Positions 25,860 to 28,856 of a stretch of DNA of 48,757 nucleotides are shown piece by piece. The notes beneath the pieces were generated by a model. It saw only the letters and a list, made by a program, of their open reading frames with translations. It did not search any database and was not told where the DNA came from. Numbering within the stretch: the stretch's first letter is position 1; every line of letters starts with the position of its first letter. The position numbers were made by a program, and so were the translations under genes. The stretch is from Halieaceae bacterium (GTDB lineage: Bacteria > Pseudomonadota > Gammaproteobacteria > Pseudomonadales > Halieaceae), in contig CACMGJ010000016.1 in the NCBI GenBank assembly GCA_902613175.1, forward strand, positions 1-48,757. The letters run 5' to 3'.

Positions 25860-26540
25860 ATGGATGTCGTCTTTAACCGAGTTGGGAAGCGTTTTGGTCA
25901 GCGAGATGCACTGGCTGATCTCAGCTTCGAATTACAAAGTGGTGAGATGGCATTCCTTACCGGGCATTCGGGTTCGGGAAAAAGCACCCTACTGCGATTG
26001 TTACTTCTCCTCGAACGGGCATCATCGGGCGACATCGCCGTCGGCGGCAGGCCGCTTTCAAAAATAAAACCCTCAGGTATTTCGAAATACCGACGAGATT
26101 TCGGTGTTGTCTTTCAGGACCACCAGCTGTTGAGCGACCGATCTATTTATCACAATGTAGCGCTCCCCCTAGAGATTGCTGGTTTTACACAACGCGACGT
26201 TGACCGTCGTGTTCGCGCGGCTCTGGATAAAGTCGGCTTGTTGGATCGGGAACGGGCTAGTCCAGATACGCTTTCGGGCGGTGAGCAGCAGCGTGTAGGC
26301 ATTGCGCGTGCCGTCGTCACCCGCCCCAAAATTTTGATTGCCGATGAGCCGACAGGAAACCTCGATCCTCAATTGTCGGCAGAGATCATGGGTTTGTTTT
26401 CAGCATTTAACAGTGTGGGAGTCACGGTGATCGTTGCCAGCCACGATTTGGCACTTATCTCACGAATGTCTCATCGCATTTTGATTTTGGACAAGGGTAG
26501 TTTGATCACGGCTGGCGATTCCCAGCGGGGTAGAGGCTGA
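25860..26540 (+). CDS. ftsE: Cell division ATP-binding protein FtsE
   Basis: ABC ATPase, 226 aa, which with FtsX activates cell-wall hydrolases at the septum. Walker [11 protein letters not shown]-loop [11 protein letters not shown], signature [14 protein letters not shown], Walker [13 protein letters not shown] and the switch His in VIVASHD are all intact. Starts 5 bases after the ftsY stop. Confidence 0.97.
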
Positions 26541-27502
26541 TGTCGAATCAGCAGTCAGCAACCGGTATTGGTGTGCGTCCCCGGCCGCCGATTAGCGCCT
26601 GGTTCCATCACCATCGTCAGGCGGCGCAGGCCAGCTATGAAAAGCTGCTGCAGGCTCCGGCATCGAATTTTCTGACTGTTTTAGTCATCGGCGTCGCGCT
26701 TGCCTTGCCGCACTTGGGGATATCGATTGCGACAGCTGTACAGGGCCAAATTGAGCAGCTGGATTCGCCACCTCAACTATCATTACTACTCGATGGCACT
26801 GTGACCTACGAGGAGGCAGCGCGCATTCGGGAACAGGTAATGCGTAAACCCGGTATCGCGGAGGTGAAATTGGTTGACCGAGACCGCGCGTTAGCCGAGT
26901 TCACGGCGGCCACTGGTTTGCAGGATCTCGTTGAGCGACTGAACAGTAACCCGTTGCCCCATTCGTTGTGGGTATACCCTAAGGCGAATGTGAGGACAGC
27001 GGGTTTAGAGCAATTACAATCAGATCTGGGTGCGCTCACCGGGGTGTCACAAGTCATCCTTGATAGTCGTTGGCTCAAGCGGCTGAACGCGTTCACCGAT
27101 TTACTGCGGACAACGGCGTCTGTTTTATTTCTTGTAATGGCGCTAGGCGTCGTTTTAACCCTGGGTAACACCTTGCGGTTAGGCATTGAAGCGCGTCGAG
27201 ATGAGATCGTAGTCATCAAGTTGATCGGTGGCGGTAATGCGTTTGCCCGACGTCCGTTTTTGTACACCGGGTTGTTTACGGGTGCGCTTGGAGGAGTGAT
27301 GGCGAGCTTGCTAAGTGGTCTTGCGCTGATGGCACTCAATGCACCTGTTAACCGCCTTTTTGAACTGTATGATCAGGTTCCTGCCTTACCTTCGCTTGTT
27401 CTGTCGGACTTGTTTGTGCTCATTTTGATGGGTGCTGGACTCGGCTTAATTAGCGCATGGTATTCAGCTCAACTCCACCTCACTCGAATCCAACCGAAGT
27501 AG
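26540..27502 (+). CDS. ftsX: Cell division protein FtsX
   Basis: Membrane partner of FtsE, 320 aa. A cytoplasmic N-terminal segment (about residues 1-45) leads to a first membrane helix, a periplasmic domain with EEAARIREQVMRKPGIAEVKLVDRDRALAEF, and three further C-terminal helices near residues 195-215, 243-268 and 290-310. Its ATG overlaps the ftsE stop (TGATG). Shorter than E. coli FtsX (352 aa). Confidence 0.95.
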   Translation: MSNQQSATGIGVRPRPPISAWFHHHRQAAQASYEKLLQAPASNFLTVLVIGVALALPHLGISIATAVQGQIEQLDSPPQLSLLLDGTVTYEEAARIREQVMRKPGIAEVKLVDRDRALAEFTAATGLQDLVERLNSNPLPHSLWVYPKANVRTAGLEQLQSDLGALTGVSQVILDSRWLKRLNAFTDLLRTTASVLFLVMALGVVLTLGNTLRLGIEARRDEIVVIKLIGGGNAFARRPFLYTGLFTGALGGVMASLLSGLALMALNAPVNRLFELYDQVPALPSLVLSDLFVLILMGAGLGLISAWYSAQLHLTRIQPK

Positions 27503-27525
27503 GCTCTACGGAACTTTTCTGCCAA

Positions 27526-27552
27526 TTAGCACTCTCAGATGAAGAGTGCTAA
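27526..27552. promoter_or_regulatory. CIRCE element (HrcA operator) upstream of rpoH
   Basis: TTAGCACTC, a 9-base spacer, then GAGTGCTAA: both arms match the classical CIRCE consensus exactly, as does the spacing. It starts 23 bases after ftsX and ends 29 bases before the rpoH ATG. HrcA bound here would block rpoH transcription. hrcA is not in the window. Confidence 0.93.
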
Positions 27553-27555
27553 AAT
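27526..27555 (+). promoter_or_regulatory. Candidate rpoH promoter overlapping CIRCE
   Basis: TTAGCA (27526-27531) as -35 and TAAAAT (27550-27555) as -10 are 18 bases apart, giving 4/6 and 5/6 consensus matches. Both boxes lie in or at the edge of the CIRCE arms, so repressor binding would cover the promoter. The predicted transcript leader is only about 20 bases. Confidence 0.5.
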
Positions 27556-27581
27556 TAGGGTTCAAGTGAGGAGTTTTGGGT

Positions 27582-28457
27582 ATGACCGAGACAAATACTT
27601 CAGTTGCATTGACACCAAACGCCATTTTGAGCATGGCGCCTGGTGCCAATTTAGCAGCCTACGTTCAGACCGTCAGCGCGATTTCTGTGCTGACGCCCGA
27701 GCGCGAGCGCGAATTGGCAAAACGTCTATTTTATGAGAACTGCGTTGACGCAGCGCGTGAGTTAGTACTCGCGCACTTGCGCTTCGTAGTTCACGTGGCC
27801 CGCAGTTATTCGGGCTACGGTTTACAAGAGGCCGATCTTATTCAAGAGGGTAATGTCGGCCTTATGAAGGCTGTAAAGCGCTTTGATCCGACCAAAGGCG
27901 TGCGGCTGGTTTCGTTTGCTGTGCATTGGATTAAAGCTGAGATGCACGAGTACATTCTTAAGAACTGGCGCATTGTTAAAGTCGCGACGACGAAAGCTCA
28001 GCGCAAACTGTTTTTTAATTTGCGAAGCCAGAAGACCGGTACGCATTGGTTAACCCATGATGAGACTCTCGCAATTGCGGAGGACTTGGGTGTTGATCCT
28101 GCCGAGGTAACTCGGATGGAGAGCCGACTTTCCAGCCGAGATCTCGCGTTTGATCTTCCTGTGGATGCAGATGAGGAGTCTGCTTGGCAGGCCCCTCAGC
28201 ATTACCTGGAGGATCACTCCGAAGATCCAGCACTGGTCGTTGAAGCAGCAGACTATGTGAGCCACGAGGAAACCCAGTTGACGCAAGCATTGTCAGCGCT
28301 CGACTCCCGAAGCAGAGACATTGTTGCACGGCGATGGCTGGCTGAGCCGAAGGCAACACTTCATGAGCTTGCTGAGGAGTACGGCGTATCCGCTGAGCGA
28401 ATTCGCCAGCTAGAGAATAATGCGATGAAAAAGCTCCGTACGGGGATGGTCGCTTAA
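27582..28457 (+). CDS. rpoH: RNA polymerase heat-shock sigma factor RpoH (sigma32)
   Basis: Sigma-70 family group 3-like heat-shock factor, 291 aa. Region 2 shows LVLAHLRFVVHVARSYSGYGLQEADLIQEGNVGLMKAVKRFDP and FAVHWIKAEMHEYIL. The RpoH box QRKLFFNLR is at residues 140-148. Region 4 ends with TLHELAEEYGVSAERIRQLENNAMKKLR. ATG at 27582 has GAGGAG upstream. The CIRCE over its promoter points to control by HrcA in addition to the usual DnaK/FtsH control of sigma32. Confidence 0.97.
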   Translation: MTETNTSVALTPNAILSMAPGANLAAYVQTVSAISVLTPERERELAKRLFYENCVDAARELVLAHLRFVVHVARSYSGYGLQEADLIQEGNVGLMKAVKRFDPTKGVRLVSFAVHWIKAEMHEYILKNWRIVKVATTKAQRKLFFNLRSQKTGTHWLTHDETLAIAEDLGVDPAEVTRMESRLSSRDLAFDLPVDADEESAWQAPQHYLEDHSEDPALVVEAADYVSHEETQLTQALSALDSRSRDIVARRWLAEPKATLHELAEEYGVSAERIRQLENNAMKKLRTGMVA

Positions 28458-28469
28458 CCCAGCTCTGGC

Positions 28470-28856
28470 ATGCGGTCGTCTTTCATTGTTATCGCCTGCC
28501 TTTTGGGTTTGATGGCTGTCGCACTAGGTGCGTTCGGTGCTCATGCACTCTCCTCAAGTATTCCTGAATCACGTCAAGCTACTTGGGCGACGGCTGTCGA
28601 CTATCACATGTTTCATGTTCTAGGGATGTTAGCGCTTGCAGCAGTTTTTCGAGGCGCGCAATCACCCTGGCTAGTGAGAGCACAAACTAGCTTCCTTATT
28701 GGCATTGGCCTGTTTTCCGGGAGTTTGTACGCGTTGGTCTTGCTCGATATTCCTGCCTTAGGTGCCGTGACGCCTTTTGGGGGCTTGTGCTTTATGCTGG
28801 GTTGGCTGAGCGCTGGCCTAGCCGCTTTTACTAGTGATGATCATGGCCATGACTGA
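28470..28856 (+). CDS. DUF423 family membrane protein (YgdD-like)
   Basis: Small inner-membrane protein, 128 aa, with four hydrophobic segments near residues 5-25, 45-62, 70-92 and 97-118. The block ALGAFGAHAL, then TWATAVDYHMFHVLGMLAL and GIGLFSGSLYALVL, identify the DUF423 family. Function is unknown. The C-terminus is DDHGHD. It starts 12 bases after rpoH and overlaps trmB, so it is probably cotranscribed. Confidence 0.88.
   Translation: MRSSFIVIACLLGLMAVALGAFGAHALSSSIPESRQATWATAVDYHMFHVLGMLALAAVFRGAQSPWLVRAQTSFLIGIGLFSGSLYALVLLDIPALGAVTPFGGLCFMLGWLSAGLAAFTSDDHGHD

Follow-up and report, generated by a model that had tools for sequence, protein, structure and literature searches.

Escherichia coli serves as the textbook model of heat-shock control in Gram-negative bacteria. 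Its heat-shock sigma factor, sigma-32 (RpoH), is adjusted through RNA folding and protein turnover, and the species has no HrcA repressor. The thermosensor of E. coli rpoH lies largely within the coding region, and the rpoH promoter P3 has sigma-E input. Nakahigashi et al. are said to have described, in 1999, the Agrobacterium HrcA and RpoH circuits as independent. The Bacillus subtilis-type HrcA/CIRCE regulon comprises the groESL and dnaK operons. GroE is stated to raise the affinity of HrcA for CIRCE (PMC6032397). For Geobacter sulfurreducens, Rodionov et al. (2004; PMC545781, Table 8) predicted a perfect CIRCE at -51 of rpoH, and sigma-E binding at the rpoH promoter was reported for Vibrio alginolyticus (PMC4890791). 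Here, we analyzed a DNA stretch of 48,757 bases from a Halieaceae bacterium, called the window throughout, in which a predicted HrcA operator overlaps promoter-like sequences before rpoH. The arrangement is ordinary as an operator and common in nature; the proposed circuit is unusual by textbook standards.

A perfect CIRCE precedes rpoH and overlaps two promoter-like layouts

The gene was identified as rpoH by a TIGR02392 match above the family cut-off and by the segment ATTKAQRKLFFNLR, which is identical to E. coli RpoH in the alignment and which we take to be the RpoH box. Because this segment is kept, control of the RpoH protein by chaperones probably remains, and HrcA would be an added layer. 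We adopted the ATG at 27582 as the start codon; the open reading frame list begins the frame at TTG 27576. The gene order ftsE-ftsX-rpoH is that of E. coli K-12. The original prediction of a mismatch-free CIRCE 29 bases before rpoH was right: TTAGCACTC-N9-GAGTGCTAA lies at this distance 5' of the ATG, in the promoter or 5'-end region of a heat-shock gene, and overlaps a promoter-like pair. It was the sole match with up to three mismatches in the window, and 100 dinucleotide shuffles gave a mean of 0.01 matches, with one match in a single shuffle. The features are listed in Table 1.

Table 1. Features at the rpoH locus of the window and related sites in other loci and genomes
Feature	Position	Strand	Remark
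ftsE	25860..26540	+	upstream of ftsX
ftsX	26540..27502	+	upstream neighbour of rpoH
Sigma-E-type -35 GGAACTT, 7/7	27510..27516	+	first base 8 nt beyond the ftsX stop codon
CIRCE operator (predicted HrcA site)	27526..27552	+	perfect 9-9-9 inverted repeat
Sigma-70-type -35 TTAGCA	27526..27531	+	the first six bases of the left CIRCE arm
Sigma-E-type -10 TCTCA	27533..27537	+	last two left-arm bases and loop; spacer 16
Extended -10 TGCTAAAAT	27547..27555	+	right CIRCE arm and AAT
Shine-Dalgarno-like GAGGAG	27568..27573	+	sequence
rpoH, sigma-32, 291 aa	27582..28457	+	TIGR02392, 386 bits, cut-off 323
TGAAAANYGGTATTTTTCA repeat, loci L180, L187, L188, L190, L191	2916-2934		
TGAAAANYGGTATTTTTCA repeat, locus L375	1478-1496		
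TGAAAANYGGTATTTTTCA repeat, locus L390	1532-1550		
CIRCE beside rpoH, family f187 (another class)			G284, G292, G295, G298, G314, G320, G326, G329

The TTAGCA and TAAAAT pair with its 18-base gap is present at 27526-27555; its score is 9/12, and TG precedes the -10. Taken alone it is weak evidence, because sites of this type occur at a mean of 0.3 in shuffles of the 401-base stretch. From the position of the -10, sigma-70 transcription is predicted to start near 27562, which would give a leader of about 20 nt. A sigma-E-type layout, GGAACTT-16-TCTCA, had been missed in the original prediction. We assume GGAACTT, a spacer of about 16 bases and a TCTAA-like -10 as the sigma-E (RpoE) promoter consensus; the window agrees with it at 7/7 bases of the -35 and 4/5 of the -10, where TCTCA is one base off TCTAA, the commonest form in relatives. 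CIRCE thus overlaps both promoter-like layouts.

Both layouts were followed in an alignment of 104 fetched rpoH CIRCE sites from order and class surveys, chosen at three or fewer mismatches. Arm positions were conserved at 80-100% and loop positions at 27-81%, a difference that the choice of sites itself favours. GGAACTT with at least 5/7 matches, starting 14-18 bases before CIRCE, was found in 81/104 relatives versus about 7% of shuffled controls, and the perfect form at that place in 26/104 versus 0%. The sigma-E-type -10 was TCTAA at 41 sites and TCTCA at 11; groES CIRCEs mostly carry TCTC there. The final T of TGCTAAAAT was 92% conserved at rpoH sites, and A stands there in 64% of groES rows. 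The extended -10 and the GGAACTT/TCTAA patterns occurred at rpoH sites and were absent from 25 groES rows (two of them the same G340 site). Among the 104 sites, a strong -35 at exactly -16 showed no association with a TCTAA-like -10 (30/50 versus 31/54).

In part of the genus, an inverted repeat, TGAAAANYGGTATTTTTCA, replaces the sigma-E -35 before the rpoH CIRCE (7/412 loci; Table 1), and this repeat may serve a different regulator as its operator. The case for sigma-E input is less secure than that for the operator, because -35 and -10 are unassociated and the -35 is replaced in these loci.

CIRCE at rpoH accompanies HrcA in the order and the class

The order survey covered 145 genomes, all with an RpoH family match (141 over the cut-off) and 42 with HrcA, which was spread over 19 of the 47 families. 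Usable rpoH upstreams numbered 143 after two genomes without a full-strength rpoH match (G062 and G120) were dropped. CIRCE with up to three mismatches was found at rpoH in 39/41 HrcA-bearing genomes versus 8/102 without an HrcA match. The 39 sites comprised 25 perfect ones, 7 with one mismatch, 5 with two and 2 with three; the misses were G022, whose rpoH is cut by the contig, and G105, with a weaker rpoH match. Among genomes at least 90% complete, the counts were 34/35 versus 4/91 (Fisher 4e-25, uncorrected for relatedness, a value which overstates the evidence because related genomes are not independent).

The operator followed HrcA in families f24 and f47, where HrcA-bearing and HrcA-less genomes stand side by side, and in family f18 one genome (G092) misses operator and HrcA together. 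The eight HrcA-less carriers were G000, G002, G016, G082, G087, G090, G091 and G141. Three of them are 95-97% complete with perfect or one-mismatch sites, and five (G000, G016, G087, G091, and G141) sit in families whose other members have HrcA. Another f18 genome, G059 (L086), has perfect CIRCE arms, an N10 loop that the N9 scan overlooked and no HrcA match; an early stage of operator loss or an hrcA missing from the assembly is possible. Of 30 loci fetched around CIRCE sites, 15 hold rpoH, 14 groES and one (L027) neither.

The class survey comprised 134 genomes, one per family, with HrcA in 94, nine of which were left out for want of RpoH over the cut-off. CIRCE stood at rpoH in 79 of the remaining 85 (26/26 by listed coordinates and 53/59 by fetched sequence), the misses being G156, G169, G180, G215, G256 and G264. 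A changed loop was considered as the cause of misses in HrcA-bearing genomes of both surveys, and it fits only G256 (three mismatches, N8); G180 keeps the right arm (four mismatches, N11), and G105, G022, G156, G215, G264 and G169 have six or seven mismatches. Of the 40 HrcA-less genomes, G000 and G035 belong to the order survey. Among 23 more that were examined, seven carry CIRCE at rpoH (G149, G159, G218, and G247 by sequence; G181, G237, and G242 by coordinates), and three of the seven are 97-99% complete. In 1600 shuffled upstreams, the best CIRCE match never had fewer than four mismatches.

Halieaceae MAGs make up most of the nearest named relatives, with RpoH identity up to 98%. In the 80 closest named rpoH loci, 72 carry CIRCE with at most one mismatch beside rpoH; Parahaliea and Haliea are among the genera with the site. 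The other eight are one locus cut by the contig (L207) and seven from Marinobacterium, Nitrincola and Amphritea without CIRCE. The guess that the arrangement is uncommon was not supported: among the HrcA-bearing genomes sampled from the class, CIRCE at rpoH is the norm. The site upstream of rpoH is a real, conserved and HrcA-linked predicted operator.

Outside the class, in a 70-genome phylum sample, CIRCE with at most two mismatches stood beside rpoH in 8/17 genomes of family f187, among the matches listed (Table 1). The 36 other out-of-class genomes of the sample had no CIRCE beside rpoH among the matches listed, by coordinates.

HrcA and GroEL in the window's assembly and its genus

Co-occurrence of CIRCE and HrcA was seen in relatives; in the window's own assembly (1.9 Mb, 82 contigs, 58.6% complete), HrcA had no match. 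Absence of hrcA from the genome had been named as evidence against the prediction, and formally the assembly shows this absence. The site could therefore be a relic in a species that has lost hrcA and leaves rpoH unrepressed, as in the few HrcA-less genomes that retain decayed or intact sites. However, GroEL is also absent from this incomplete assembly, although the same search finds it in 14/14 control genomes, and the missing hrcA is for this reason best read as incompleteness. The distance from hrcA to the groES CIRCE is about 46-57 kb in G340, G350 and G365, so a single assembly gap could take both. Moreover, hrcA was found in 37/41 genus genomes (own included) and in 13/13 with completeness of 90% or more and contamination of 5% or less, and none of the 31 closest named loci (L169-L199) has a mismatch in the CIRCE arms. 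A relic at rpoH is thus very unlikely. Genus-wide, CIRCE with at most one mismatch was listed in 39/41 genomes; sites with three mismatches mean little at genome scale, because a reversed control pattern also matches many genus genomes.

Promoters and operator in genomes without HrcA

Both CIRCE arms overlap promoter-like hexamers, and the arms might be conserved merely as promoter elements, with HrcA having no part at rpoH. We examined 96 order genomes without a CIRCE of three or fewer mismatches at rpoH, 94 of which have no HrcA match. The combined promoter layout persists in 41 of them at a score of at least 14, versus 1/288 shuffles, and 55 score below. For the comparison of operator decay, genomes were grouped by HrcA, since grouping by CIRCE score builds decay in; a layout score of at least 14 was then found in 37/41 HrcA-bearing and 47/102 HrcA-less genomes.

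In the 47 HrcA-less layout genomes, the left-arm bases T, T, G and C at positions 0, 1, 3 and 4, which were not selection criteria, are kept at 72-91%, and G is commonest at position 2, as in TTGGC. The promoter-neutral bases, which serve only the operator, behave differently. A2, C6, G18, A19, G20, C23 and A26 are present in 92, 97, 92, 95, 92, 100 and 84% of the 37 genomes with HrcA but in 15, 49, 36, 49, 57, 45 and 40% of the 47 without it. The 9-base spacing and the symmetry also track HrcA. Conservation as promoter elements alone is accordingly a very improbable account of the arms. The comparison indicates that promoters can outlive the operator.

Chaperone targets and hrcA control in relatives

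A CIRCE before groES, which the original prediction proposed to look for, was found in relatives of the same lineage, including the genus: locus L392 has CIRCE followed by groES and groEL, and locus L391 has hrcA followed by grpE, dnaK and dnaJ. The window's own assembly has no groEL. The groESL operon of the genus carries both CIRCE and a sigma-32-type site, CTTGAAA-N13-CCCCAT. Sigma-32-type sites above the 95% level of shuffles were found at 2/2 groES, 6/6 grpE and 5/6 dnaK loci tested, but at 0/8 hrcA and 0/2 rpoH loci, one of the latter reaching that level. Gene names at these loci come from HMM matches for L391, L392, L012 and three genes of L405 and L407, and from HrcA matches for hrcA; the remaining grpE and dnaK labels follow size and order only.

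The hrcA regions of 20 order genomes had no CIRCE with up to three mismatches. With no sigma-32-type site above shuffles at the 8 hrcA loci tested for it either, hrcA looks constitutive in the order. Both class-level hrcA regions that were fetched carry CIRCE (L409 at 3520 and L410 at 3161), and three further class-level genomes (G223, G224, and G225) have it just before or near hrcA by coordinates. The order and the class-level groups seem to differ by a loss or a gain of hrcA autoregulation. As judged from these sites, groESL in the genus would be under both controls, and rpoH would be under HrcA, sigma-E-type and sigma-70-type control.

Two genomes have further rpoH-like genes. G175 has a second full-strength rpoH copy without CIRCE (L308), its first copy having one. 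G003 has a second RpoH-like gene (C22:351243-352031) that scores 316 bits and so stays below the cut-off; hrcA (C22:340557-341213) is about 10 kb away.

RNA folding at rpoH

The repeat lies immediately 5' of the gene, and its main role might be that of a stem-loop in the RNA, at the 5' end of the message, for stability or heat sensing, rather than that of a DNA operator; in Bacillus, a link to stability has been described for CIRCE in mRNA leaders. The predicted sigma-70 start, however, is 3' of the repeat, which would therefore be missing from that transcript. An Rfam search of 27400-28500 gave no match at E up to 1. We also folded the leader of about 20 nt with 240 coding bases in silico, a fold that excluded the repeat itself. 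The start site of the window's rpoH was unpaired at 0.34-0.36 from 10 to 50°C, unlike the E. coli control, which opened with heat (0.10 to 0.51 over this range, with 0.11 at 20°C, 0.34 at 42°C, and 0.51 at 50°C). The window's rpoH thus shows no thermosensor of the E. coli type in silico. Action as an RNA element is the least probable of the alternatives considered here, and a DNA operator is preferred.

A short leader had originally been taken to argue against a long 5' thermosensor. The reasoning is weak, because the E. coli thermosensor is mostly inside the coding region. We dropped the idea that HrcA control replaces the RNA thermosensor in general, since heat-opening was alike in 118 CIRCE-bearing and 54 CIRCE-less loci (P = 0.26). 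The starts in this comparison were picked by Shine-Dalgarno score, a source of noise, and only loci offering both a usable start and 240 coding bases entered it.

Discussion

The operator sequence, the promoter layout, the gene identities, the co-occurrence with HrcA and the sigma-32-type sites at the targets of relatives are directly established. HrcA binding, GroEL dependence, repression and promoter use at rpoH we infer. Taken together, a working HrcA operator over the rpoH promoters, through which HrcA dependent on free GroEL gates rpoH transcription, is a reading in which we have high confidence. At normal temperature, free GroEL would keep HrcA in its DNA-binding form, and HrcA would sit on the rpoH CIRCE. 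There, it would block both the sigma-70 promoter, with its extended -10 in the right arm, and the sigma-E-type promoter, with its -10 in the left arm and loop. Once GroEL is taken up by misfolded protein, HrcA would become inactive and rpoH would be transcribed, and sigma-32 would turn on groESL, grpE and dnaK. Restored GroEL would then make HrcA active again and shut rpoH, closing the loop. Chaperonin gating of this kind would be one step in a series that also includes sigma-E input and the control usually exerted on the sigma-32 protein.

Chaperonin gating of rpoH had been part of the original prediction. Its comparative side was borne out by hrcA in most of the genus, by CIRCE at both rpoH and groESL and by the tracking of HrcA by CIRCE; the circuit itself is deduced. 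Since the arrangement recurs in most sampled HrcA-owning relatives, chaperonin supply probably decides when rpoH is switched on. One observation counts against a simple repressor model: under nitrogen starvation in Xylella, hrcA rises more than 4-fold and rpoH 2-fold together, according to a review (PMC11764788), and such a model does not predict this joint rise.

The Gammaproteobacteria of GTDB take in the former betas. We lean toward the view that HrcA control of rpoH is ancestral in this class, with rpoH a core target beside groESL and with chaperonin shortage licensing housekeeping and envelope-stress transcription. The E. coli type would then be derived by HrcA loss, and the double promoter with a decayed operator would be a fossil in many lineages. 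The sites in 8 of the 17 sampled f187 genomes of another class, among the matches listed, suggest a still greater age. If the circuit holds for most HrcA-bearing lineages, the usual separation of repressor circuit and sigma circuit is wrong there, and the repressor stands upstream of the sigma factor. GroEL, not DnaK alone, would be the gauge. Lineages that have lost HrcA but retained the promoters provide natural comparisons for how such a hierarchy is dismantled.

In the literature text that was searched, Permina and Gelfand 2003 aside, there was no account of CIRCE at rpoH across Gammaproteobacteria. As far as checked, what is new is that CIRCE overlaps a sigma-E-type layout and that HrcA-less lineages keep the promoters.

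Compared with known systems, the locus shares with the Bacillus subtilis-type regulon the operator sequence, the repressor family and the CIRCE before groESL of relatives; GroE dependence is described for HrcA (PMC6032397). It differs in that the predicted operator stands before the gene for the heat-shock sigma factor and in that the 20 hrcA regions of the order have no CIRCE with up to three mismatches. Geobacter sulfurreducens is also predicted to have a perfect CIRCE upstream of rpoH; that case concerns one delta-proteobacterium with CIRCE also at hrcA-grpE-dnaK-dnaJ, and the accessible text does not discuss overlap with a sigma-E promoter. Putative sigma-E input is shared with the Vibrio rpoH promoter (PMC4890791). 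E. coli rpoH has the same ftsX-rpoH order and a sigma-E-type layout, TGAACTT...TCTGA, from -121, but it lacks CIRCE (best match, seven mismatches), HrcA was not found in the control-genome search, and in silico heat opens the E. coli start site but not that of the window's rpoH. Agrobacterium likewise has both regulators in one cell; the difference is that, at the locus described here, HrcA would be placed upstream of RpoH.
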